A stretch of DNA of 41,759 bases, taken from NCBI GenBank assembly GCA_020846655.1, contig JADLDL010000114.1:1-41759 (forward strand), given 5' to 3'. The stretch is from Saprospiraceae bacterium (GTDB lineage: Bacteria; Bacteroidota; Bacteroidia; Chitinophagales; Saprospiraceae). Below the pieces are notes generated by a model, which saw nothing but the letters and a program-made list of their open reading frames with translations, did no database searches and was not told the origin of the DNA. This document shows, one piece after another, positions 13,471-41,213 of the stretch. Made by a program: the position numbers and the translations under genes. Every line of letters begins with the position of its first letter. The first letter of the stretch is position 1.

Positions 13471-13497
13471 GTCCGCAAAGGTTTTACCTTTGCGGAC
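13471..13497. promoter_or_regulatory. Perfect 12-bp palindrome overlapping divergent promoters (MocR operator candidate)
   Basis: gtccgcaaaggt (13471-13482), a 3-nt spacer, and its exact reverse complement acctttgcggac (13486-13497). The right half contains tacctttg (13485-13492), a full TAnnTTTG -7 element for the plus-strand regulator gene. The left half gives aacctttg, a near-match for the minus-strand gene, with a TTTG about 17 bp upstream of it. A bound regulator would cover both promoters. Confidence 0.8.
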
Positions 13498-13537
13498 GAC
13501 AAAACAGATTCAGTTTTTGTAAAATAGCACAGCACAG

Positions 13538-14977
13538 ATGAAAACTGCGGCCGATGATTTTTTGTACCACCAGGTTGCCGACCGCCTGGAGACTATGGTG
13601 GGCAATGGCTTGTGGAAAACCGGCGACAAACTGCCTTCCGTGCGGGCCCTGAGCCAAGAGCAGGGGATCAGCATGAGCACTGCGTTCAAGGCCTATGCCG
13701 CATTGGAGAGCAAAGGCCTGATTGAGGCGCGCCCAAACTCGGGCTATTTTGTGCGGTTTGCGCCGCGCAAGCAGGCCGAGCCGCCCCGGATGCCGCGCTA
13801 TGCGCCGCCGCCACAGGGTTTGTCGGTCGACGAGATGATTGCCACGGTGTACGCCAACCTCTCGGAGGCGGGGGTATTGCATTTGTCGCTGGCGGCGCCG
13901 GCCTACGAACTGTTGCCGGCGGCCAAACTCAACAAATGCCTGCTGGAGGCGCTGCGCAGTAGTCCGACCAGTTGCCTGCACTACGAAAACATCCAGGGCA
14001 ACGAGCAACTGCGCCAGCAACTGGCCCGCTTGTCGTTCAACTGGGGTGGCCGCTCGACGGCCGAGGAGGTGGTGGTAACGCAGGGCTGCATGGAGGCCCT
14101 GGCGTTTTGCTTGCGGGCGGTGACCCAGCCGGGCGACGTGGTGGCCATCGAGCGCCCCACCTATTTCGGCATTTTCAGCCTGCTCAAAAACCTGGGCCTG
14201 CGGGCCCTGGAGGTGCCCAACCACCCGGAGACCGGCCTGGACCTCCAGTTTTTGCGCGAAGCCATCCACCGGCAACGCATCGCGGCGGCCCTGTTGGTGC
14301 CCAGTTTCAACAACCCCACCGGCAGCCTCATGTCCGACAGCCAAAAAGAGGCCCTGGTGGCCCTGCTGGCGGAGCGCGAGATCCCCTTGGTGGAGGATGA
14401 TATTTACGGCGAGTTGTATTTTGGCAAAGCCCGGCCGCGGACCTGCAAGAGTTTCGACCGGCAGGGCCTGGTGTTGTATTGTTCGTCGATGTCCAAGTCG
14501 CTGGCGCCGGGCTACCGGGTGGGCTGGTGCCAGCCCGGGCGTTTTCAGAAAAAGGTCTTGCAACTCAAGTTGACGCACTGCGTCACCACGGCCACACCCA
14601 CCCAGGCGGCCGTCGCGCGGTTTTGCGAGGCTGGGCGGCTGGATCTGCACCTGCGGCATTTGCGCAAGGCCTTGCACACGCAATGCCTGCGCTACTGGCA
14701 GGCGATTGCGGAGTTTTTTCCGGCGGGCACGCGGGTCTCGCAGCCGGCGGGCGGGTATGTGTTGTGGCTCGAACTGCCCGAAACGGTGGATGCGTTCCAC
14801 CTGTACCACCGGGCGCGGCAGCACCAGATCAACATTGCGCCGGGGCAGATTTTCAGCACCGACGGGCAGTTTTCGCACCATATCCGGCTGGGTTTCGGCA
14901 CGCCGTATGGCCCGGCCTTGGAAAACAGCCTGCGGACCCTGGGGGGGCTGGTGCGGCAATTGGCTGCTGGGGGATAA
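13538..14977 (+). CDS. MocR-type regulator (GntR winged helix + aminotransferase domain)
   Basis: 479 residues. Residues 1-75 are a GntR winged helix (GDKLPSVRALSQEQGISMSTAFKAYAALESKGLIEARPNSGYFV). Residues about 110-479 are a fold type I aminotransferase domain with the PLP lysine K320 in SSMSKSLAPGYRVGW and the motif PSFNNPTG. Members such as PdxR and GabR sense PLP or amino-compound adducts. The upstream divergent aminotransferase gene is the most likely target, through the palindrome at 13471-13497. The effector cannot be told from sequence. The start gives a 45-bp leader after the -7 element. Confidence 0.92.
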   Translation: MKTAADDFLYHQVADRLETMVGNGLWKTGDKLPSVRALSQEQGISMSTAFKAYAALESKGLIEARPNSGYFVRFAPRKQAEPPRMPRYAPPPQGLSVDEMIATVYANLSEAGVLHLSLAAPAYELLPAAKLNKCLLEALRSSPTSCLHYENIQGNEQLRQQLARLSFNWGGRSTAEEVVVTQGCMEALAFCLRAVTQPGDVVAIERPTYFGIFSLLKNLGLRALEVPNHPETGLDLQFLREAIHRQRIAAALLVPSFNNPTGSLMSDSQKEALVALLAEREIPLVEDDIYGELYFGKARPRTCKSFDRQGLVLYCSSMSKSLAPGYRVGWCQPGRFQKKVLQLKLTHCVTTATPTQAAVARFCEAGRLDLHLRHLRKALHTQCLRYWQAIAEFFPAGTRVSQPAGGYVLWLELPETVDAFHLYHRARQHQINIAPGQIFSTDGQFSHHIRLGFGTPYGPALENSLRTLGGLVRQLAAGG

Positions 14978-31404: not shown

Positions 31405-31412
31405 TACGTTTG
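31405..31412 (+). promoter_or_regulatory. Possible promoter -7 element of the RiPP exporter gene
   Basis: tacgtttg matches TAnnTTTG, 59 bp before the ATG at 31472. A -33 element is not evident. The rest of 31228-31471 holds a small gctatt/aatagc hairpin near 31325 and no gene that I can support. Confidence 0.4.
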
Positions 31413-31471
31413 TGCTGCCACAATTCTGGCTCTAAGCACCCATTCGTTCAACGGCTAAACCACAACCCTGC

Positions 31472-33751
31472 ATGCCCGTACTATTTCCCTTTTACCGCCA
31501 ACGTGATGCGATGGACTGCGGTCCGGCTTGCCTGATGATGATTGCCGCCGCACATGGCCGGCGGTTTACGCTGCCGTACTTGCGCGAGCAAAGTTACCTG
31601 AGCCGGGAGGGCGTGTCGGCCCTGGGGATTGTGGAGGCTGCCGAGGGCGTAGGGTTTCGGACGATGACCGTCAAGGTGCCGTTCGATTCCGGAAAAAGTA
31701 CGGCCTGTTTGTTGGAAGCGCCCCTGCCTTGCATTGCCCATTGGAATCAAAATCATTTTGTGGTGGTGTACCGCGCCAACGAACGCTATGTGTGGGTGGC
31801 CGACCCCGGCGCTGGGAAATTTAAAATTGCCCGGCCGGATTTTGAAAAATCCTGGTGCAGCGATGCCGGCAAAGGCATTTTGATCCTGTTGGAACCGACC
31901 CCCGAGTTTTACCGGATAGAGGCTGCAGTACCTCAATCGACCACCCGCTGGTCGCAGGTGCTGGACTACCTGAAGCCCCACCGGCAGCTCATGGTGCAGT
32001 TGTTGGTCGGCATGACCCTGGGCTCGGTACTCCAATTGATTTTCCCGTTTTTGACGCAAAGTATCGTCGATTTTGGGATTGAAAACCGCAACCTGGGCTT
32101 TATCTATATTATTCTGGCGGCACAACTGATGCTGTTTTTTAGTCAAATGGTGGTGCAATTTGTGCAAAGTCGCATTTTGTTGTTTATCGGTACGCGGATC
32201 AATGTGGCGATGGTCAATGATTTTTTAGCCAAACTGATGCGCCTGCCAATCGGTTTTTTCGATACTAAAATGACTGGTGATTTGATGCAACGGATCGGCG
32301 ATCAATCCCGCATCGAGTCATTTCTGACCCAGTCTTCACTCGCGGTGCTTTTTTCGGCGGTCAATTTCCTGATTTTCAGCCTGGTCCTTTTTGTGTACAA
32401 CCGGACCATTTTTGCACTGTTTTGCTTCGCTGCGGTGCTTTATGTGGTTTGGATCTTGTTTTTTCTACGGCGGCGCAAGGAGATCGATTATATCCGCTTC
32501 CAGCAATCCGGCGAAAACAGCAATACGCTGATTGAGTTGATCCAGGGGATGCAGGAAATTAAACTGCAAGGCTCGGAGCGCAAACGCCGCTGGATTTGGG
32601 CAGGAATTCAGGCCAAACTGTTTCACACCAATTTGCAATCGCTCAATCTGGCGCAATGGCAGGAAACGGGCGCCGGGTTTATCAATCAGGGTAAAAATAT
32701 ATTGATTTCCTTTTTGGCTGCCAGCGCGGTGATCGACGGGCAAATGACGCTGGGGATGATGCTGGCCACGATTTATATGGTGGGCCAATTGGACGCCCCT
32801 TTGCAGCAATTTATTGCGTTTATCCGGGCGGCACAAGATGCAAAAATTAGCCTCGAGCGCCTGAGCGAAGTGCGGGATCAGCCGGATGAGGACGCCGCAG
32901 CGGCGCACAAATTTACGCGGATGGGCGACACCGAAACACCCACTGCACGCCTGGTGCCGTCGATAGTGCTCCCAGCTGGCGGACATCAATTTCGGCAGGT
33001 ATCAATGCCTGAGCACGCCGATTTCCACCTGGATCAGGTGAGTTTCAGGTACAATCACCTGGCTGACGACGTGCTCGACAAGGTTTCGCTGACGATACCG
33101 CATGGCAAAGTAACGGCCATCGTGGGCACCAGCGGCAGCGGCAAAACCACCCTGGTGAAACTGCTGCTGGGTTTTTATCAGCCCACCAAAGGCGTAATCC
33201 GCCTCGGCAACACGGCGTTGCACCACATTCAGCCCTCCATCTGGCGCAAACAATGCGGCGCGGTGATGCAGGACGGGTTTATTTTTTCCGATAGTATCGC
33301 CAATAATATAGCAGAAAGCGATGAATACCCGGATCGTGAAAAACTACTCCATGCCGTAACACTAGCCAATATCCGGGATTTTGTAGAGGAATTGCCTCTG
33401 GGTTATAATACCCTGATCGGTTCGCGGGGCAACGGGGTGAGCCAGGGCCAGCGCCAACGCCTGCTGATTGCGCGGGCGGTGTATAAAAACCCTAAGTTTT
33501 TGTTTTTTGATGAAGCCACCAATGCCCTGGATGCCAACAATGAGCGGGTCATCGTTGAAAACCTGCAACAATTTTATCAAAAAAAGACGGTTGTCGTCGT
33601 CGCGCACCGGCTGAGTACCGTGCGCCATGCTGACCAAATCATTGTCCTGGAAAAAGGCGGCGTGGTGGAGATCGGGACACACGAAGAACTGGTTGGCCAA
33701 CGCAATGCCTATTTCAATCTGGTAAGAAACCAACTGGAACTAGGGGCATAG
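31472..33751 (+). CDS. Peptidase C39-containing ABC transporter (leader-cleaving RiPP exporter)
   Basis: 759 residues. Residues 1-130 are a C39 cysteine peptidase with Q10, C16 (QRDAMDCGPAC), H95 (NHFVVVY) and D111 (VADPG), all intact. Residues about 165-460 are six-helix ABC transmembrane segments. The nucleotide-binding domain has Walker A VGTSGSGKTT at 551-560, signature VSQGQRQR, Walker B FLFFDEATNALD and H-loop VAHRLSTV. Such exporters cut double-glycine leaders in the cytoplasm and export the product. The peptide at 34343, with Gly-Gly at 29-30, is the obvious substrate, and the HlyD protein at 38006 the adaptor. Transcription is probably separate from the maturase genes. Confidence 0.95.
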   Translation: MPVLFPFYRQRDAMDCGPACLMMIAAAHGRRFTLPYLREQSYLSREGVSALGIVEAAEGVGFRTMTVKVPFDSGKSTACLLEAPLPCIAHWNQNHFVVVYRANERYVWVADPGAGKFKIARPDFEKSWCSDAGKGILILLEPTPEFYRIEAAVPQSTTRWSQVLDYLKPHRQLMVQLLVGMTLGSVLQLIFPFLTQSIVDFGIENRNLGFIYIILAAQLMLFFSQMVVQFVQSRILLFIGTRINVAMVNDFLAKLMRLPIGFFDTKMTGDLMQRIGDQSRIESFLTQSSLAVLFSAVNFLIFSLVLFVYNRTIFALFCFAAVLYVVWILFFLRRRKEIDYIRFQQSGENSNTLIELIQGMQEIKLQGSERKRRWIWAGIQAKLFHTNLQSLNLAQWQETGAGFINQGKNILISFLAASAVIDGQMTLGMMLATIYMVGQLDAPLQQFIAFIRAAQDAKISLERLSEVRDQPDEDAAAAHKFTRMGDTETPTARLVPSIVLPAGGHQFRQVSMPEHADFHLDQVSFRYNHLADDVLDKVSLTIPHGKVTAIVGTSGSGKTTLVKLLLGFYQPTKGVIRLGNTALHHIQPSIWRKQCGAVMQDGFIFSDSIANNIAESDEYPDREKLLHAVTLANIRDFVEELPLGYNTLIGSRGNGVSQGQRQRLLIARAVYKNPKFLFFDEATNALDANNERVIVENLQQFYQKKTVVVVAHRLSTVRHADQIIVLEKGGVVEIGTHEELVGQRNAYFNLVRNQLELGA

Positions 33752-33809
33752 GCCCGGGTGCACTACCAGCCGGCAGCATTTGATTGTCTTCCTGCAATAT
33801 GTGGGCAGC

Positions 33810-33836
33810 GGCGCCCCGATCAGGGCCTTTTTATAT
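33810..33836 (+). terminator. Weak terminator-like element after the exporter gene
   Basis: A short gccc/gggc stem in gcgccccgatcagggccttttt, with a T run. The stem is only about 4-5 bp, so the call is uncertain. Confidence 0.3.
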
Positions 33837-33889
33837 GAAATGTATATTTTTATTGTTTTTATAACTCATTTTTCATAAAACCTGAAAAT

Positions 33890-34201
33890 ATGAACCTCTT
33901 CTCAGATTTGTTTTTACTGGAGCGTGTCGATCACCTGATCCGAACCCGCGCTACCGGCAAACCCACTCAATTTGCTTCCCGGCTGGAAACTTGTGAGCGA
34001 AATGTATACCGTCTGATCGGCCGCTTGCGCGATATGGGGTTTCCTATAGAGTATGATAAGCAATCCGATACTTATTTTTATAAAGAACCTGTCCGCTTGC
34101 GCTTTGATATTGTTGTTGGGGATGAAAAACTATTGCTTATCCGCGGCGGTGAAAAAAATTTCAATTTTAATGATAGACTGCCAATAGATGGCAGTGTCTA
34201 G
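33890..34201 (+). CDS. Small HTH-domain DNA-binding protein in the RiPP cluster
   Basis: 103 residues. Residues about 10-72 match an HTH_11/WYL-type winged helix (ERVDHLIRTRATGKPTQFAS, then ERNVYRLIGRLRDMGFPIEYD, then a YFYKEPVRLRF wing). Small proteins of this type are found beside Bacteroidota natural-product precursors. It may regulate the cluster. The C-terminal 30 residues are not conserved in any way I recognise. An A/T-rich gap of 138 bp precedes it and the precursor gene begins 141 bp later. Confidence 0.8.
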   Translation: MNLFSDLFLLERVDHLIRTRATGKPTQFASRLETCERNVYRLIGRLRDMGFPIEYDKQSDTYFYKEPVRLRFDIVVGDEKLLLIRGGEKNFNFNDRLPIDGSV

Positions 34202-34276
34202 ATAGATCTTTGTATCACTTTCAGGTTCTAATTTAGTGCGCACGGAACAGGGAAGAAGGGCGATGCTGAAAACCCT

Positions 34277-34299
34277 GCCAGGCTTCGGGTGAAGCCGGC
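34277..34299. promoter_or_regulatory. Hairpin in the precursor leader region
   Basis: gccaggcttc (34277-34286), loop gggt, gaagccggc (34291-34299): a 9-bp stem with one bulged A, followed by seven A on the plus strand. On the minus strand it would look like a terminator. On the plus strand it may protect or regulate the precursor mRNA, starting 44 nt before the ATG. A near-match to the -7 element (gatctttg) lies at 34205-34212. Confidence 0.45.
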
Positions 34300-34342
34300 A
34301 AAAAAAGAGAGTAAGCGATGATGTTATTATTATTTCCGAATT

Positions 34343-34594
34343 ATGAAGAATAACAAATTTTCTGCACTCGACTCCGGCCTGTTCGATAGCGCCGAACTCA
34401 ACAAATCTCAATTGCGCGTGGTGACGGGCGGCGCTACCACCTGGACGAACTACAACTCGGCCGGTACGGTAACGGGTTCGGGAACGGATACCATCGGCAC
34501 CAATGCTGTAACCACCTTCTCCTCCGGCGGCGGCGACCCGCGCAGCGATGCCAAAATCGCTCTCCCCCACGACCTGAATCCGCGGACGAATTAG
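34343..34594 (+). CDS. Double-glycine RiPP precursor of a grasp-with-spasm system
   Basis: 83 residues. The leader (1-30) has the Bacteroidota GG-leader pattern: FSALDSGLFDSAELNKSQLR then VVTGG, with the cleavage site after G30. The 53-residue core is rich in Thr, Ser, Gly and Asn. It contains TWTNYNSAGTVTGSGTDTIG and a later segment with Asp at DPRSD and PHD. Hydroxyl residues and acidic residues are the donors and acceptors used in graspetide (omega-ester or amide) crosslinks. Position between the C39 exporter and the ATP-grasp gene supports the call. Which residues are linked cannot be read from sequence. A very stable hairpin follows 16 bp after the stop. Confidence 0.85.
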   Translation: MKNNKFSALDSGLFDSAELNKSQLRVVTGGATTWTNYNSAGTVTGSGTDTIGTNAVTTFSSGGGDPRSDAKIALPHDLNPRTN

Positions 34595-34610
34595 GCCTGG
34601 TGCAACAAGT

Positions 34611-34650
34611 CACGGGCGCGTTGTATACCCATACAATGCGCCCGTGTTTG
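34611..34650 (+). terminator. Strong hairpin after the precursor gene (partial terminator)
   Basis: cacgggcgcgttgtat (34611-34626), loop accc, then atacaatgcgcccgtg (34631-34646), one G-T pair in 16, followed by ttt only. The long stem with a short T run suggests partial read-through into the maturase genes, keeping precursor mRNA in excess, and protection of the 3' end. Confidence 0.75.
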
Positions 34651-34729
34651 AAAGATACAGGGTAGTGGCGCCGGCAACCAATTTCTCCTTACAAATACCC
34701 GTTGTGTATACCGTAATCGTTTTCTTATT

Positions 34730-35686
34730 ATGCACAAACTTTTTTTAGTACTGATTTTTGGGAGCCTTCCTTTTTGGGGTATAGCGCAAAGTATATGGAT
34801 ACCCGCCAAACCTCCGGGGCTTTCACAGGAATTATACCAGGATTCAGAAACCGGCCTGAAGATAGCAGCGCGCCAACTTTCGGATAAAGGATTGCCTTTT
34901 ATTGACCAAAAGATAGACCGGTTTAACTTGTTCTTTAGTTATGCAAAATTACAAGCCCCACTTGATACAGTGGCTAAGTATATGAACCTTGTTTTTTTGT
35001 ATCACCCGGATTTTGTATGCGAGTATATGTTTACTACTCAATATTCGGGTTCCGAAGGAAAGTTTGTGCAGGGTTTTATCCGACGGTATGATTCCACCCT
35101 ATATCACAACACCCGACTTCGCTGCGCCGGCTTGTTTGCTTCCTATGACTCTGTATTGATCCGGCAGTTGGATACCATCCGGGCGGCCGACCAGGATATT
35201 CGGGGCAAACTGGACGCGCAGGGCAATCCGCAATTTGGCGGCCGCAATGCTTCCGCCAATGCCTTGTGGCGCCAGCAGCTTCAACGTGATTCCATCAACC
35301 AGCGAAAAATGGAGCAAATTTTCTTCCGATATGGCTATCCGGGGCGGCAACTGGTTGGCAGCAACCATGCCGGCGTGCTGTTTTCGGTGTTGCAGCATGC
35401 GCCGTTATCGCTCCAGGAAAAATACCTGTACCTGATTCAGGCGGCGGCTGAAAAAGACCAACTTGACCAGCAGTCTGTCGCATACCTGACCGACCGGATC
35501 CGAATGGCCAAAGGCCTGAAACAGCGATACGGCACACAATTGGTCTTCAATCCCCAAAAAGAAGCACTCGAACTCTATCCAATAGAAAATATGACAGGTA
35601 TAGATGCGCTTCGCAGAAGCGCAGGCCTGGGCCCTTTACACGAATACCTCCAACAATACGGGATTAAAGAAATTCGAAAAGAATGA
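34730..35686 (+). CDS. Secreted DUF6624-like protein in the RiPP operon
   Basis: 318 residues with a signal peptide ending near FWGIAQS. The C-terminal half has the DUF6624 pattern: RYGYPGRQLVGSNHAGVLFS, then QHAPLSLQEKYLYLIQ, then YLTDRIRMAKGLKQRYGTQ. Its function is unknown. The stop overlaps the start of the ATP-grasp gene in an ATGA, so translation is coupled, which argues for a role in this system, for example in processing, export or self-protection in the periplasm. That role is inference. The N-terminal half (about 25-180) is not recognised. Confidence 0.8.
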   Translation: MHKLFLVLIFGSLPFWGIAQSIWIPAKPPGLSQELYQDSETGLKIAARQLSDKGLPFIDQKIDRFNLFFSYAKLQAPLDTVAKYMNLVFLYHPDFVCEYMFTTQYSGSEGKFVQGFIRRYDSTLYHNTRLRCAGLFASYDSVLIRQLDTIRAADQDIRGKLDAQGNPQFGGRNASANALWRQQLQRDSINQRKMEQIFFRYGYPGRQLVGSNHAGVLFSVLQHAPLSLQEKYLYLIQAAAEKDQLDQQSVAYLTDRIRMAKGLKQRYGTQLVFNPQKEALELYPIENMTGIDALRRSAGLGPLHEYLQQYGIKEIRKE

Positions 35687-36672
35687 AAACGATAGCCATT
35701 CTGACAGAAAAAGGCGACCGCTCTACTGCGGAAGTAATGGACTATCTGGTTTATCGCCGCCAAACCACAATCCTCCGCCTCAACTACGAAACCCTGGTCC
35801 GGCACCTGCACCTCGAACTTGGCCAAGCGGCCAACCAGGCCACACTCAACGAGGCTCCTGCGCCCATTGATCTGGATGCCATCGACGGATTCTGGTACCG
35901 CCGGGGAAACATATACCTCAGCCTCCCCTTCGGGCAGGAGGCCATTCGGCACGAGCGGGTTAAGATGCACCTGGATGCCGAATGGATGGCCGTTCAGCAA
36001 CTGGCCCATGAAGCGTTTGGGGCCCACATAAAATTGGGCAGCGCACAAGCCGAAACGGAAGGCCGAAAACTAAAAGACCTGTTTCTGGCCCAAAAAGCCG
36101 GTTTTGCTGTGCCAGATACCCTGGTCACTACCGATAAAAATAAACTCATGCACTTTATGCAAGCCTACCCTTCGGTGATTACAAAGCCGCTGAACTACCA
36201 CGTCAATATTGAAACAACAGATGTTTTTTTCAAAAGTACCGGCACCCGGGTAATTACCCCCGACGAATTGGACAGACTCGATGATCATTTTTTTCCGCTG
36301 TTCGCACAGGAATACATAGACAAAAAAATAGAAATCCGCATCTTTTTCCTGAAAAACCAACTTTTCCCGATGGCCATCTTTTCGCAACAGGATGACACCA
36401 CCCGGCTCGATTACCGCCACTACAACACCGAAAAGCCAAACCGGAACGTGCCCTTTGCTTTGCCGGAAGCCCTTGCCCAATGTGTACTGCGTTTTATCGA
36501 ATACACTCAACTGGATACGGGCTCTATTGATGTAATGCTGGGGCAAGACGGGGTGTATTATTTCCTGGAGGTCAATCCCTGCGGGCAGTTTAGTTGGGTT
36601 TCTCTGCATTGTAACTATTATCTGGAAGAACGAATCGCTCAATATTTGACAGATGAACAAGCTACCGCATGA
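35683..36672 (+). CDS. gwsG: Grasp-with-spasm system ATP-grasp peptide maturase
   Basis: 329 residues. Residues 1 to about 100 are the pre-ATP-grasp domain of the MvdC/MvdD type, including FWYRRGN. Residues about 120-325 are the ATP-grasp fold. They have the lysine in ITKPLNYH, an acidic segment DKKIEIRIFF, and the metal-binding DVMLGQDGVYYFLEVNPCGQF. These ligases activate acidic side chains of a precursor core with ATP and join them to Thr/Ser or Lys. The likely substrate is the peptide at 34343. It overlaps genes at both ends: ATGA with the DUF6624 gene and 20 bp with the 82-residue gene. Confidence 0.93.
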   Translation: MKTIAILTEKGDRSTAEVMDYLVYRRQTTILRLNYETLVRHLHLELGQAANQATLNEAPAPIDLDAIDGFWYRRGNIYLSLPFGQEAIRHERVKMHLDAEWMAVQQLAHEAFGAHIKLGSAQAETEGRKLKDLFLAQKAGFAVPDTLVTTDKNKLMHFMQAYPSVITKPLNYHVNIETTDVFFKSTGTRVITPDELDRLDDHFFPLFAQEYIDKKIEIRIFFLKNQLFPMAIFSQQDDTTRLDYRHYNTEKPNRNVPFALPEALAQCVLRFIEYTQLDTGSIDVMLGQDGVYYFLEVNPCGQFSWVSLHCNYYLEERIAQYLTDEQATA

Positions 36673-36901
36673 TCACAAGGCCCCGGAAGATGATCCGGAA
36701 TATGACCGCTTGTTTGCGCCGGACATTTCGGGCCGCTTGCCGCTCATTTTTCATTTTCTGGAAGCAGATCCAATACAACCGGCTTTGCCTGTAGAAATCT
36801 GGGAAGAAGGTGTAAAATCATTCGAGGTAGATTTTTACCAAACCAGCACCTACACTCCGGAAATTTTCTATAAGCCCATTTCAAAAATATGGAAAATATA
36901 G
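36653..36901 (+). CDS. 82-residue protein between the two maturase genes, unknown
   Basis: 82 residues, acidic at the start (HDHKAPEDDPEYDRLFAPDI) and with a hydrophobic middle (RLPLIFHFLEADPIQPALP). It has no signal peptide, no double glycine and no cysteine. It overlaps the ATP-grasp gene by 20 bp and the SPASM gene by 13 bp, so it is firmly part of the operon. It may be a recognition or adaptor subunit for the maturases, or a second unleadered substrate. I recognise no family. Confidence 0.7.
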   Translation: MNKLPHDHKAPEDDPEYDRLFAPDISGRLPLIFHFLEADPIQPALPVEIWEEGVKSFEVDFYQTSTYTPEIFYKPISKIWKI

Positions 36902-38031
36902 AAGCCATGACCAACCACCTTCCGTTCAAACTATTCTCTTGTGTGTTGCCTGTGCGTGGTGCCCGGCGTTGCGCATTGGTAGACGTACAACGGCACGTCT
37001 TTCGCCTGATTCCCGAAGGGCTCTTTGAAATCCTGCGCGACATGGATGGCTCCAGCATACCGGAGGTCAAAGGGGCGTTTCAGGGCGAGCATGATGCCCT
37101 TATCGACGAATATTTTGCATGGCTGGAACGGGAAGAACTTATCTTTTTTACCGAAACCCCTGAATTGTTTCCGCCCATTGATTGGCGCTGGAACGCGCCG
37201 GCCGAGATTACCAATGCTATTTTGGATTTGGACCAAGACAGTGCCCCCGACTTTCCCGCCGTATTTGAAGAGTTGGGTGCCCTGGGCTGTAAACACGTGC
37301 AAATTCGCTGTTTTTGCGAAAAAAACCTGCCGTTTTGGGAAGATGTATTGGCCGCTGCGCATCGAAGCAGGGTTACCTCTATAGAGATTTTAACCCGATA
37401 CCACCCCGATTTTGACAAAAAGCGCCTGTTCGATTTTTGCCAACGCTTTCCCAGGGTCATTTTGTTTACGGCACATGCCGCTCCCGCAACCGAACAGGTG
37501 TACGGCGCCAGAAGTGGTATCGGGCACATCTTTTTTACCGAACAAGCCCTGGACTCTGCTGCGCATTGCGGGGTGATCCTGCCCGATTTTTTTACCGTCA
37601 ATATCAAAAATGTTTCAGAAGCCCTGCACCACAACTCTTGCCTGAATCGCAAAATTTCTATCGATACCCATGGAAATATAAAAAACTGCCCCTCCATGCC
37701 GCAATCCTTTGGCAATATCCGGACCACCTCGCTGCACACGGCGCTGGAACACCCCGATTTCAGGAAATTCTGGCACCTCAACAAAGATCAGGTGGCCGTA
37801 TGCCGCGACTGTGAGTTCAGGTATATCTGTACCGATTGCCGGGCCTATCTGGAACAACCCCATGACCCCGCGAGCAAACCGCTGAAATGCGGCTACGACC
37901 CCTACACCTGCCAATGGGAAGAATGGAGCAATAACCCGCTCAAACACCAAGCCATGGCGCACTATGGACTCTCTTCGCCCCAACCAACACCCAAACCTGT
38001 AGACTATGCCATCGCAGATACAACTTGCTAA
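36889..38031 (+). CDS. gwsS: Grasp-with-spasm system SPASM-domain peptide maturase
   Basis: 380 residues. Residues about 10-95 resemble a PqqD/RRE-like recognition region, although this is inference from pattern. Residues about 97-245 have the look of a radical-SAM barrel but no CxxxCxxC motif; only RCFCEKN is present. The SPASM domain is complete: C251 and C267 (CX10GX4C), C305, C308, C314 and C317 (CX2CX5CX2C), then C334 and C341. The protein probably carries auxiliary iron-sulfur clusters without SAM chemistry. The start may be at 36889 or at the ATG at 36907. It overlaps both neighbours and works with the ATP-grasp enzyme. Confidence 0.9.
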   Translation: MENIEAMTNHLPFKLFSCVLPVRGARRCALVDVQRHVFRLIPEGLFEILRDMDGSSIPEVKGAFQGEHDALIDEYFAWLEREELIFFTETPELFPPIDWRWNAPAEITNAILDLDQDSAPDFPAVFEELGALGCKHVQIRCFCEKNLPFWEDVLAAAHRSRVTSIEILTRYHPDFDKKRLFDFCQRFPRVILFTAHAAPATEQVYGARSGIGHIFFTEQALDSAAHCGVILPDFFTVNIKNVSEALHHNSCLNRKISIDTHGNIKNCPSMPQSFGNIRTTSLHTALEHPDFRKFWHLNKDQVAVCRDCEFRYICTDCRAYLEQPHDPASKPLKCGYDPYTCQWEEWSNNPLKHQAMAHYGLSSPQPTPKPVDYAIADTTC

Positions 38032-39301
38032 GCCCCCGGAGCCGATCTTCAATGAGCGCGAAGAAATCCAATACCTACTCGGCAACCCACCCGGCTGGAT
38101 GCTTCGGTTTGGCCTCAGTAGCTTGGCGGGTATCGTGGTTTTTTTACTTGGCCTCAGTTATTTTATCCGGTATCCGGATGTGATTGAATCCAAAATTATA
38201 CTCACTACCGTCCATCCGCCCATTCGTGTGTTGGCCACGGCCAGCGGCCGCGTATCGGCGCTGCTGAGCGCCGACCATCAACTCGTTGAGCAAGGAGAGG
38301 TGTTGGCGGTCCTGGAAAATGCAGCCGACTGGACAGATGTGCGGCAATTGGAGGCCTGGCTGCAACATCCGCTTGAACCGACGCCTGCAGGCCTCCGTGT
38401 CGGTGAACTGCAGGGGCCCTGGTCGGCCTTTACCCAACATTGGAATGAGTTCCGGTACTACCGCAGCAACAACGGTACGGCGGAGCGGATCGCACACCTG
38501 CGCCGGCAAATCCTCCAATTGGAGGCGATGGAAAAGGTTTTGCTGGCGCAAAAAAACACCCAGCAGGCGGCCTTTGATCTGGCGCTCAAAGACCGGCAAC
38601 GGCAGCAAAACCTGCATGCCAATGGCATCATTTCCGACTTGGAAGCCGAAAAGGCGGAGGCCGCTTTTTTGCAACAACAACAACAACTCGAAGGCGCTGC
38701 AGCAGCGTTTATCCAAAATCGAATGCAAATCCGGCAAATCGAAAGCCAAATCACCGATCTCGGGCAGAACAACAACGACCAGTTCAACGAGAAAGAACTT
38801 ACCCTGGCCGAAGACCGGCAACGCCTGCTCAGCGCGGTCATCGAATGGAAACAACGATACCTGGTACAGGCGCCGATCCGGGGCCGGGTGTCGCTATCGA
38901 CGGTGTGGAGCCCCCAGCAGCCAGTCGCCGCAGGCGATGAAATTCTGGCCGTTGTGCCACTCGAATCGGATACCAATGCCCGGCGGGTCATCGGTAAGGC
39001 CATGTTACTGGTAGCCAATTCCGGGCAGGTCAAGGCCGGCATGAAGGGCTTGATCCGCCTCGATGGCTTCCCGGCACAACAATTCGGCGCCCTCGAAGCC
39101 ACGGTCAGCAACATCGCTCTGGTGCCGCAAAAAGATGCCTATGTCCTCAACCTGGAGCTGCCACATGCATTGCGCACCACCTATGGCAAAGAGGTGACGC
39201 TGCGGCAGGAAATGAGTGGCACGGTGCGCATCGTCACCGATGACCAGCGCATCCTGAGTCGAATTTTTAACCGCCTGCGCGATTTATTGAAGAATAGTTA
39301 A
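38006..39301 (+). CDS. HlyD-family membrane fusion protein of the RiPP exporter
   Basis: 431 residues. A cytoplasmic N-terminus is followed by one membrane helix (about 35-52), a lipoyl-like half (VLATASGRVSALL...VEQGEVLAVLENA), a long alpha-helical coiled coil (about 165-275) rich in Gln and Glu, the second lipoyl half (VQAPIRGRVSLSTV) and a beta-barrel. It connects the inner-membrane ABC exporter to the outer membrane. It overlaps the SPASM gene by 26 bp. The exporter itself lies 4.2 kb upstream, at the other end of the cluster. No TolC gene is in the window. Confidence 0.92.
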   Translation: MPSQIQLAKPPEPIFNEREEIQYLLGNPPGWMLRFGLSSLAGIVVFLLGLSYFIRYPDVIESKIILTTVHPPIRVLATASGRVSALLSADHQLVEQGEVLAVLENAADWTDVRQLEAWLQHPLEPTPAGLRVGELQGPWSAFTQHWNEFRYYRSNNGTAERIAHLRRQILQLEAMEKVLLAQKNTQQAAFDLALKDRQRQQNLHANGIISDLEAEKAEAAFLQQQQQLEGAAAAFIQNRMQIRQIESQITDLGQNNNDQFNEKELTLAEDRQRLLSAVIEWKQRYLVQAPIRGRVSLSTVWSPQQPVAAGDEILAVVPLESDTNARRVIGKAMLLVANSGQVKAGMKGLIRLDGFPAQQFGALEATVSNIALVPQKDAYVLNLELPHALRTTYGKEVTLRQEMSGTVRIVTDDQRILSRIFNRLRDLLKNS

Positions 39302-39321
39302 GGGCGCTGGCCAGCGCCCTT
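39300..39321. terminator. Bidirectional hairpin between convergent genes
   Basis: aagggcgctggccagcgccctt is a perfect 22-bp palindrome. It fills the 18-bp gap between the stops at 39301 (plus) and 39320 (minus) and includes parts of both stop codons. It has no long T run. Confidence 0.65.
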
Positions 39322-41011
39322 ATTGGGGCTTGCGTTTTTCCCATTCCTGCAAATCGGCATCGCCGCCCGCCGCATCGCCCAGTTGCTTGCGCACATTGCC
39401 ACGCGCCCGGTAGGCCCGCGCAAAACCGGGTTCGAGTTCGAGGGTTTTGTTCAGGTCGGCCAGCGCCTCCGGCAAACGTTTCAGGTTGACGTAAGACAAG
39501 GCCCGGTTGTACAGGATTTCCGGGTCGTTCGGGTGTTTTTCCAGGTATTTGTTCAAATCGGCCACCGACGATTCGTATTGTTTGGCCATGCCCAGCAAGC
39601 CACCGCGGTATTTGTAGGCCTCGGTCAGGTCCGGATTGGTGCTGATGGCTTTGTTGAAATCCTCCAGCGCGCGCCGGCCTTCGCCTTTGTCGCCCAGGGC
39701 CATACCGCGCCACAGGTAGGCTTTGCCGCCGTTGTCGCCTTGGGCCGCAATGGCTTTTTCAATCAGCACCACCGTGTCGCGCCAGTCGCGGATGCGGGAA
39801 AATGTGGTCAGGAACCAAGCCAGGCCAAGCACAGCCAGCACCACCCAGGCCAGGCCCGCCCGGTTGGGGGCTTTGTCGCGGAAAAAGCCCGGCAAGGCAG
39901 CCAGAATGGCAAAAAACCCGAGGCAAGCCAGGTAGTTGTAGCGGTCCGAGCGGAGTTCGAAGGTGCCGATGGTGTACAGGGGCAAGGCAAAAACGATATT
40001 AGCCAGGTAAAAAAGTGTGCCCCGAAACACAAACGGCCATTGCTCGCGTTGGCGCCACACCCACCACAACAAACCCGCCAGCACCAGCGGCGCCGCGTAG
40101 TAGGGCCAGGGCCAACTACCGCCGGCATTTTTGACGAAGGGGTACCAAATACTCAGGCCGATGGGGGCCAGCAGTTTGGTCCAGTAAAACAAGAGGGTGT
40201 GGCAGGCCATCAGGGCGCGGTCGGCCATGGAAAAGCCCCCGCTCAGGGTGTCTACCTGGTGGCCGGCTTGCGCCCGGGAATAAAACGTGAGGAGCCCGAA
40301 GCCCAGCGCCAGGGCAAAAAACGGCGCTTTTTCGAGCAGCGAAGCCCGGCTCAGCGGAGCGCGGCGGAGCCAGAGGTCGACCACCAGCAAACTCAGGGGC
40401 AGGGCCACGGCTGCCGATTTGGACAAGCAAGCCAAGGCGAAAAAGCCCAGTGCCAGCCAGTATTTTTTGCCCCAGGCCGCCGCTTCATCCGTATGCGCCA
40501 CATATGCGTTCAGGGCCAACAGCGAAAAAAGCGAAAACAATGGGGTGCTAAACCCGGCAATCCAGGACACCGCCTCCACCTGCATCGGGTGAATCGCAAA
40601 AAACAAAGCAATCAGGAACGCTACCGTGGCATCCCCTTCGAGCCGCCGGAACAGGCGAAACACCAGAAATGCGTTGGCGGCATGTACCAGCGCGCTCATC
40701 ACGTGGTACCACAACGTGGAGTCCTTGCTCAGCCAGTGCGCCAGGGCATAGCCCATCCAGGTGATAGGCGCGTACATGCCCAGGTTGAAACGGCCAAATA
40801 TGCCAGGCGAAAAATTCGTAACCGCCGGGTTGTCGAGCGTGGCCGAGTGGTCGTCCATGGCTACCATCGGATTGCCAAAACCGGTGCTGTACAGCAGCAA
40901 GGCCAGGCCTGCCGCCACCCAGGGCATCCAGCGGTCCGGAGAATATTCAGAGGAAACCGTACTTTTGGAAGGGTTGGGAGCCGTTGTTTTTTTTGTCGCT
41001 TGTTTAGCCAT
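39320..41011 (-). CDS. Multi-pass membrane protein with C-terminal TPR repeats (TMTC/O-mannosyltransferase-like)
   Basis: 563 residues from the ATG at 41011 (MAKQATKKTTAPN). The frame is open to 41167 but the extra part does not look coding. Residues about 30-420 have around ten hydrophobic helices with a luminal MVAMDDHSATLDNPAV loop and the motif HPMQVEAVSWIAG, resembling bacterial TMTC-like glycosyltransferases of the GT-C type. The aspartate pair in the first loop fits a catalytic DD motif. Residues about 430-555 hold four or five TPRs (KAYLWRGMALGDKGEGRRALEDFNKAI and so on, in outline). Substrate is unknown. It is convergent with the RiPP operon and not obviously linked to it. Confidence 0.82.
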   Translation of the reverse strand: MAKQATKKTTAPNPSKSTVSSEYSPDRWMPWVAAGLALLLYSTGFGNPMVAMDDHSATLDNPAVTNFSPGIFGRFNLGMYAPITWMGYALAHWLSKDSTLWYHVMSALVHAANAFLVFRLFRRLEGDATVAFLIALFFAIHPMQVEAVSWIAGFSTPLFSLFSLLALNAYVAHTDEAAAWGKKYWLALGFFALACLSKSAAVALPLSLLVVDLWLRRAPLSRASLLEKAPFFALALGFGLLTFYSRAQAGHQVDTLSGGFSMADRALMACHTLLFYWTKLLAPIGLSIWYPFVKNAGGSWPWPYYAAPLVLAGLLWWVWRQREQWPFVFRGTLFYLANIVFALPLYTIGTFELRSDRYNYLACLGFFAILAALPGFFRDKAPNRAGLAWVVLAVLGLAWFLTTFSRIRDWRDTVVLIEKAIAAQGDNGGKAYLWRGMALGDKGEGRRALEDFNKAISTNPDLTEAYKYRGGLLGMAKQYESSVADLNKYLEKHPNDPEILYNRALSYVNLKRLPEALADLNKTLELEPGFARAYRARGNVRKQLGDAAGGDADLQEWEKRKPQ

Positions 41012-41213
41012 CGGGAAATGCCGTTTTTTGCAGGCGGCAAAATACGGTGTCTGCGCATATTCTGCGAAAAGAACGCCGGAAGCCGGCGCGAAAAGGCGTA
41101 TTGGCGCAGAGCACAGGACTCCAATCAAGCAGCGCAGCCCTGTTCCAATGCATCTAAACCGGATCAAACCCTGTCATTCACTACTTCATTCTTCATATTG
41201 TATCCACATTCCC

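Follow-up and report, generated by a model that had tools for sequence, protein, structure and literature searches.

A grasp-with-spasm graspetide cluster of a Saprospiraceae bacterium and the small protein encoded between its ATP-grasp and SPASM genes

Which of the genes that lie beside a graspetide synthetase are dedicated parts of the same system, and what might each of them contribute to the finished peptide? The question is raised by a row of eight genes in a stretch of 41,759 nucleotides (hereafter the window), corresponding to positions 1 to 41,759 of contig JADLDL010000114.1 from a Saprospiraceae bacterium (assembly GCA_020846655.1), in which a first-pass annotation, made from the letters alone, had recognised a grasp-with-spasm cluster with two genes taken to be uncharacterised, one for an 82-residue protein and one for a DUF6624-like protein. 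Judged by the family matches of its proteins, the row is intact and belongs to a kind of cluster described before, the grasp-with-spasm graspetide type; it probably makes and exports a ring-linked peptide, and the recurrence of the 82-residue gene in related loci indicates that it is a dedicated part of such clusters. The whole proposal, to which we assign a probability of roughly 0.6, is that the ATP-grasp enzyme would crosslink a Thr-rich core, aided by a SPASM partner and by the 82-residue protein, and that a C39 exporter together with an HlyD adaptor would trim and export the product.

The classification is based on NCBIfam and Pfam scans of ten proteins of the region, for which the curated or gathering cut-offs were used. 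The ATP-grasp enzyme reaches 235.2 bits against TIGR04192, just above the cut-off of 230, and the SPASM protein 332.5 bits against TIGR04193 (cut-off 175); the naming of the cluster as grasp-with-spasm holds, and the ATP-grasp and exporter motifs are intact. All eight reading frames that had been announced are present and open in the window's list of open reading frames, spanning 31472-39301 on the plus strand, and the last five, from the DUF6624 gene to the HlyD gene, do overlap as claimed, by 4, 20, 13 and 26 bases in turn. The genes, with the evidence for each, are the following.

31472..33751, plus strand: C39-peptidase/ABC exporter (Peptidase_C39, ABC_membrane and ABC_tran; C16/H95/D111)
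33890..34201, plus strand: small helix-turn-helix-like protein, a putative regulator (weak HTH_11 match)
34343..34594, plus strand: GG-leader precursor of 83 amino acids (TIGR04149 match below cut-off; composition)
34730..35686, plus strand: DUF6624 protein with a signal-peptide-like N-terminus, its N-terminal part helical (PF20329)
35683..36672, plus strand: predicted graspetide synthetase, an ATP-grasp enzyme of the GRASP_w_spasm type (TIGR04192; intact motifs)
36653..36901, plus strand: 82-residue LPL-family protein (match to our own profile; alignment A1)
36889..38031, plus strand: SPASM protein with an RRE-like N-terminus, a partial pseudo-radical-SAM barrel and a seven-cysteine SPASM part (TIGR04193)
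38006..39301, plus strand: HlyD-family periplasmic adaptor (HlyD_3)

The cluster would be placed in branch 5 of the ATP-grasp enzymes (Makarova 2022) and, by description, in graspetide group 14 (Carter 2026), which is characterised by the co-occurrence of a SPASM gene (PMC13097080; for this and the other articles cited by accession, statements refer to the part of the text that was available). With these systems it shares the TIGR04192 and TIGR04193 proteins, a GG precursor, a small protein ahead of the SPASM gene, a DUF6624-like protein and C39/HlyD export; compared by description, no qualitative difference was found, the core sequence being the window's own. The two supposedly uncharacterised genes have in fact been described, the first as the LPL family and the second as a family called 'cluster 23' (PMC8939145), and DUF6624 has been noted in graspetide groups 18, 20, 23 and 42 (PMC13097080). 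The 82-residue protein was matched to the published LPL family by description, and the counterpart of the DUF6624 protein is probably 'cluster 23', again on the strength of the description. Within the literature searched, outside which subscription journals largely fall, the available texts report no product for any SPASM-associated graspetide cluster and the phrase grasp-with-spasm has no match; the available part of PMC9576775 mentions neither SPASM nor TIGR04192.

The ATP-grasp enzyme has the motifs expected of an active member, D243-Y-R and E296-V-N-P-C-G-Q, and such motifs are widely kept: of 39 ATP-grasps aligned, the window's among them, 35 have D[FYWC]R and 37 the [ED]xN[PHQ]xGQ signature. 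It resembles 5ig9, which is MdnC (review PMC7823629), and CdnC (7mgv). Its partners were studied in related loci, which were obtained by searching TIGR04193 in 100 relatives (13 genomes past the cut-off, the window's own counted) and in 395 sampled genomes of the phylum (12 past the cut-off, counted in the same way). A total of 38 regions around TIGR04193 matches, some weaker ones included, were fetched together with four named loci, from Flavobacterium poyangense, Chryseobacterium flavum and two Bacteroidota metagenome-assembled genomes. Searches with the window proteins recovered 41 ATP-grasp/SPASM pairs in 36 loci; within the fetched flanks, an exporter was found in 15 of these loci, an HlyD protein in 16 and both in 14.

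The small gene is where this comparison is most informative. The 82-residue protein has no Pfam or NCBIfam match at E<=1; a short open reading frame lies between the ATP-grasp and SPASM genes in 37 of the 41 pairs, and those of the remaining four were found by reading the frames, one of them being that of L073, where the LPL gene carries an in-frame stop and the adjoining ATP-grasp is open. An iterated profile recognises the small protein in 31 of the 41 pairs and in the window, and its 32 matches among the 11,557 stop-to-stop segments of 43 sequences all fall in ATP-grasp/SPASM gaps, the worst with an E of 3.9e-9. In a held-out test, training on 16 rows from the window's order recovered 13 of the 16 others at E<0.05 and the reverse direction 11 of 16, while no segment outside the ATP-grasp/SPASM gaps reached E<0.05 (best 0.093). 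Both halves had first been gathered by the iterated search, and the L066 row is partly misplaced in that alignment, so that what is tested is shared signal, and the recovery is not blind. Applied to 100 whole genomes, the profile yielded 17 matches at E<=1.5e-4, every one of them directly upstream of a SPASM gene, and four weaker ones (E 0.018 to 0.072) located elsewhere; 15 of the 17 are either the window's own or already contained in the profile, and the other two are those of G052 and G048. There is no sign of fusion to a neighbour among the 17, none of which lies in a frame of more than 132 residues. That the gene row is more than chance is indicated by the LPL, ATP-grasp and SPASM genes, which are met again in the same order in related loci. 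The first-pass annotation had proposed this gene as a dedicated part, to be given up if it were absent from related clusters; its presence in 31 of 41 pairs and the 17 of 17 strong genome matches upstream of SPASM genes bear the proposal out.

Two segments characterise the family. In the window protein they are a Pro30-hydrophobic segment and a C-terminal YQTSTY...FYKPISKI; in alignment A1 (the window plus 30 of the 41 pair frames, the interrupted L073 and the ten pairs unrecognised by the profile being omitted), Pro is found in 30 of 31 rows, hydrophobic residues follow it at +1 (29/31), +3 (31/31) and +6 (27/31), and Arg, Lys, His or Gln stands at +4 in 16 of 31. The C-terminus keeps a YxT..Y....FYKPISKI-like motif and the middle part is variable. 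This agrees with the published LPL family, comprising 116 proteins always encoded directly upstream of a branch 5 SPASM gene (PMC8939145): the position, an LP-hydrophobic motif and the lack of GG are shared, and what is added here is the C-terminal KPISKI-like motif and the held-out test, the match to the published family being by description only. Could such a protein be a second precursor peptide? It is small, it adjoins the ATP-grasp and its middle varies, and still the idea is highly improbable and was rejected, given that neither GG nor an acidic acceptor is conserved in the 31 aligned proteins of A1; a conserved Pro-hydrophobic segment and a conserved C-terminus are the reverse of a variable core, and the LPL family was likewise found to be free of precursor features in PMC8939145.

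The precursor proper is the 83-residue product upstream. The core after its GG is 53 residues long and counts 11 Thr, 5 Ser, 4 Asp and a single Lys, with neither Glu nor Cys present, so the earlier wording of a Thr/Asp-rich core is right as to Thr and does not stand as to Asp. The GG leader announced at first pass is present, although the protein scores 15.3 bits against TIGR04149 (cut-off 25) and is therefore not filed under that model; this shortfall does not decide membership of the system, because branch 5 precursors are reported to be very diverse and mostly not covered by curated models (PMC8939145). A weak similarity (E 0.0005) links the precursor to positions 13492-13743 of locus L064. 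A second glycine run, SSGGGD, lies inside the core, and as branch 5 precursors can hold several GG motifs (PMC8939145), a shorter final product is possible. What the leader does not have is the Phhx(1,2)h motif, which is also missing from the leaders of all 16 GG-precursor candidates taken from 14 loci; at least two of these candidates (those of L033 and L065) look spurious, and the window precursor, whose leader has no Pro at all, is not counted among them.

What kind of protein, then, is the SPASM partner? CxxxCxxC is absent from the window protein and from the 25 other rows of alignment A2 (the window plus 25 of the 41 paired SPASM proteins), and it appears in 0 of 50 open reading frames hit in the SPASM search, fragments included, 36 of which have at least 325 residues. 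With the motif missing from the window and from 50 of 50 related frames, an active radical-SAM enzyme was ruled out, and radical chemistry by this protein finds no support in its sequence; it is most likely a pseudo-radical-SAM protein serving as a binding partner. The AlphaFold model, built with 26 sequences (pLDDT 85.7), points in the same direction: short strands followed by three helices form an RRE-like N-terminus, the barrel is partial, with four longer strands (109-196) and two short ones, and the SPASM part comes after it. The closest folds in the PDB are CteB (5why, E 3.3e-6) and SuiB; the RRE entry TbiB1 ranks 22nd (E 0.043, probability 0.99). The seven matches at E<=0.001 have TM-scores of only 0.27-0.37, and a PDB sequence search with the SPASM alignment gave no match at E<=0.01. 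CteB and SuiB, radical-SAM SPASM maturases, are thus the nearest solved relatives in fold, from which the window protein differs by the missing CxxxCxxC and the incomplete barrel. In four loci (L069, L076, L086 and L090), the SPASM gene is broken into two pieces beside an open ATP-grasp, by assembly error or decay.

The seven cysteines of the SPASM part tell a less uniform story. The window protein holds all of them, and in 36 long relatives all seven are present in 27, four in 8 and none in one (L094), the count being made at the window's seven aligned positions, where a misaligned, shifted cysteine would be missed. The reduced-cysteine homologues are those of L064, L074, L081, L089 and L091-L095, with four cysteines each except L094; in L064, L074 and L081 the reduced copy shares its locus with a seven-cysteine copy. 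All ATP-grasps paired with these nine show [ED]xNxxGQ. A maturase that catalyses a further modification (a C-C, C-O or thioether bond) could be suspected from the seven cysteines kept in the window and in those 27 relatives, from the peptide maturase name that TIGR04193 carries and from the CteB and SuiB folds, both peptide maturases. In addition, such chemistry has been proposed for branch 5, with bonds of these three types named as possible products of its SPASM family enzyme, which a figure legend calls a radical SAM enzyme (PMC8939145). This reading is nonetheless unlikely in view of the 50 frames lacking CxxxCxxC, the reduced barrel, the loss of SPASM cysteines in 9 of 36 relatives and a window core that offers no Cys for a thioether.

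If the SPASM protein is a non-radical partner, the LPL protein may serve it or the ATP-grasp. A PqqD-like role has been proposed for the family, whose motif was likened to the Phh[x1-2]h leader motif that is absent from branch 5 precursors (PMC8939145). An LPL protein acting as a PqqD-like chaperone of the SPASM protein only, with no contact to the ATP-grasp, is accordingly a serious contender, if the less favoured one: besides that published proposal, the LPL gene immediately precedes the SPASM gene in every recognised pair except that of L080 (30 of 31), and the KPISKI-like motif at the LPL C-terminus could be a docking site for the SPASM protein. It fits less well that the SPASM model already has an RRE/PqqD-like N-terminus, that LPL bears a leader-like Pro-hydrophobic segment absent from the precursors, and that LPL stands beside the zero-cysteine SPASM homologue of L094, although that locus may be inactive. 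Under the proposal favoured here, LPL, whose Pro-hydrophobic segment is similar to the leader helix of microviridins, would instead activate or dock the ATP-grasp: it would provide the leader-like helix missing from the precursor, or it would connect the ATP-grasp with the SPASM protein. By analogy, a trans-acting leader helix is possible. In microviridins, the helix that activates the ATP-grasp is part of the precursor leader; a microviridin leader supplied in trans works (review PMC7823629). A more specific version, with recognition split between the GG leader held on a dead radical-SAM protein (RRE, pseudo-barrel and SPASM) and an ATP-grasp-switching helix moved to LPL and acting in trans, is speculative and rather doubtful. 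There is precedent for a graspetide synthetase depending on a partner in the MirB/MirC pair, where the N-domain of MirC is weakly RRE-like (PMC13097080), and the same logic is proposed for the window, where the SPASM protein and LPL would take the partner role.

Several observations weigh against this proposal. In L080, which belongs to the phylum sample, LPL and the SPASM gene are separated by a DUF6624-like gene, and 10 of the 41 pairs hold a frame in the same position that the LPL profile does not recognise. The strict motif Phhx(1,2)h occurs in 18 of 31 LPL proteins versus an expectation of 9.5 after shuffling, and in several of the 18 it sits elsewhere in the protein. In MdnC, Glu191, Asp192 and Asn195 bind a leader Arg (PMC7823629), and the matching stretch is gapped and variable in the 39 grasp-with-spasm ATP-grasps, so that an MdnC-like binding mode is without support in them. 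The retention of all SPASM cysteines in most relatives (27/36) means that Fe-S clusters may still matter. Finally, in the second pair of L064 the ATP-grasp gene is broken at two points and the signature comes from its C-terminal part only, and the ATP-grasp of L094 reads DVK where D[FYW]R is expected; both systems may therefore be inactive, which weakens the argument from cysteine loss.

Is the DUF6624 protein equally dedicated? It matches PF20329 with 63.2 bits (cut-off 27), and an iterated profile gathered 32 related proteins, the window's included, of which 13 reach Pfam DUF6624 alone at E<=0.01, so the remoter members rest on our own profile and on shared residues: H223 is invariant in alignment A3, R295 invariant in A4, and G202 nearly invariant in both. 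A DUF6624-like gene is found directly upstream of the ATP-grasp in 25 of the 41 pairs, and 30 pairs have one anywhere in the locus; among the 16 that lack it directly upstream, those of L070 and L072 end at or near a contig edge. Part of the earlier claim of a dedicated component stands on this co-occurrence. The rest falls short: the family is common elsewhere and looks exported. In 60 relatives there are 38 DUF6624 matches, 5 of them in grasp-with-spasm loci and 21 covered by 20 fetched regions, and in these 20, several on short contigs, no such ATP-grasp, LPL or SPASM gene was seen; one lies in the window's own genome (contig C371, 1009-1974; L141) and the other 19 are L142-L160. As for export, a crude test finds a hydrophobic N-terminal stretch in 30 of the 32 proteins, 15 of these with a lipobox-like site, the same test also flagging 8 of 26 SPASM and 1 of 31 LPL proteins.

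A cytoplasmic tailoring enzyme dedicated to the graspetide would agree with the gene's place upstream of the ATP-grasp in those 25 pairs and with the conserved His223 and Arg295, and yet the exported-looking N-termini make a cytoplasmic maturase role unlikely, and the 20 regions without such an ATP-grasp speak against dedication; this alternative is improbable. The published 'cluster 23' family of branch 5 loci has a signal peptide, a lipoprotein site and a conserved His and Arg (PMC8939145). The window protein shares with it the signal-peptide-like N-terminus, the two residues and a frequent presence in grasp-with-spasm loci; a difference is that in related genomes DUF6624 is also common away from graspetide loci. 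What fits best is an extracytoplasmic role, in processing or self-protection. The structural model (pLDDT 85.5) has no PDB fold match at E<=0.001 (best E 0.29), and a PDB sequence search with the alignment gave 22 matches at E<=1, mostly TPR proteins on the N-terminal part.

The remaining genes concern export and, perhaps, regulation. The exporter matches Peptidase_C39 with 113.4 bits (cut-off 22, E 8.9e-33), as well as ABC_membrane and ABC_tran, and its triad C16, H95 and D111 is intact, just as annotated; the HlyD protein matches HlyD_3 with 48.3 bits (cut-off 22.2, E 1.9e-12). No TolC-like outer-membrane protein is named among the ten region proteins scanned against Pfam and NCBIfam. The reading frame called a helix-turn-helix protein exists, the assignment itself being weak (best match HTH_11 at E=0.13, under the cut-off), and a homologue was found in 5 of 42 loci searched. 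A protein with C-terminal TPR repeats, encoded convergently at 39320-41167 on the minus strand, marks where the cluster ends downstream.

Taken step by step, the favoured mechanism would run as follows. The SPASM protein, as a scaffold and non-radical partner, would hold the GG leader with its RRE-like domain; the ATP-grasp, activated or docked by LPL, would link Thr, Ser or Lys side chains of the Thr-rich core to those of Asp as esters or amides; cleavage after GG would fall to the C39 exporter, with export through HlyD; and the DUF6624 protein would work outside the cytoplasm, in post-export processing or self-protection. Rosaritide, made by MirB/MirC, likewise combines a synthetase with a dedicated partner whose N-domain is weakly RRE-like; MirC has a SurA-like C-domain (PMC13097080), whereas the partners in the window would be a pseudo-radical-SAM/SPASM protein and LPL. 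The comparison names the helper proteins that would be needed in a reconstitution and predicts an absence of radical chemistry. The family-wide loss of the radical-SAM motif, the partial loss of SPASM cysteines and the cross-validated LPL family may be of use beyond this locus, and the cluster would offer a compact test case for partner-dependent peptide macrocyclisation.

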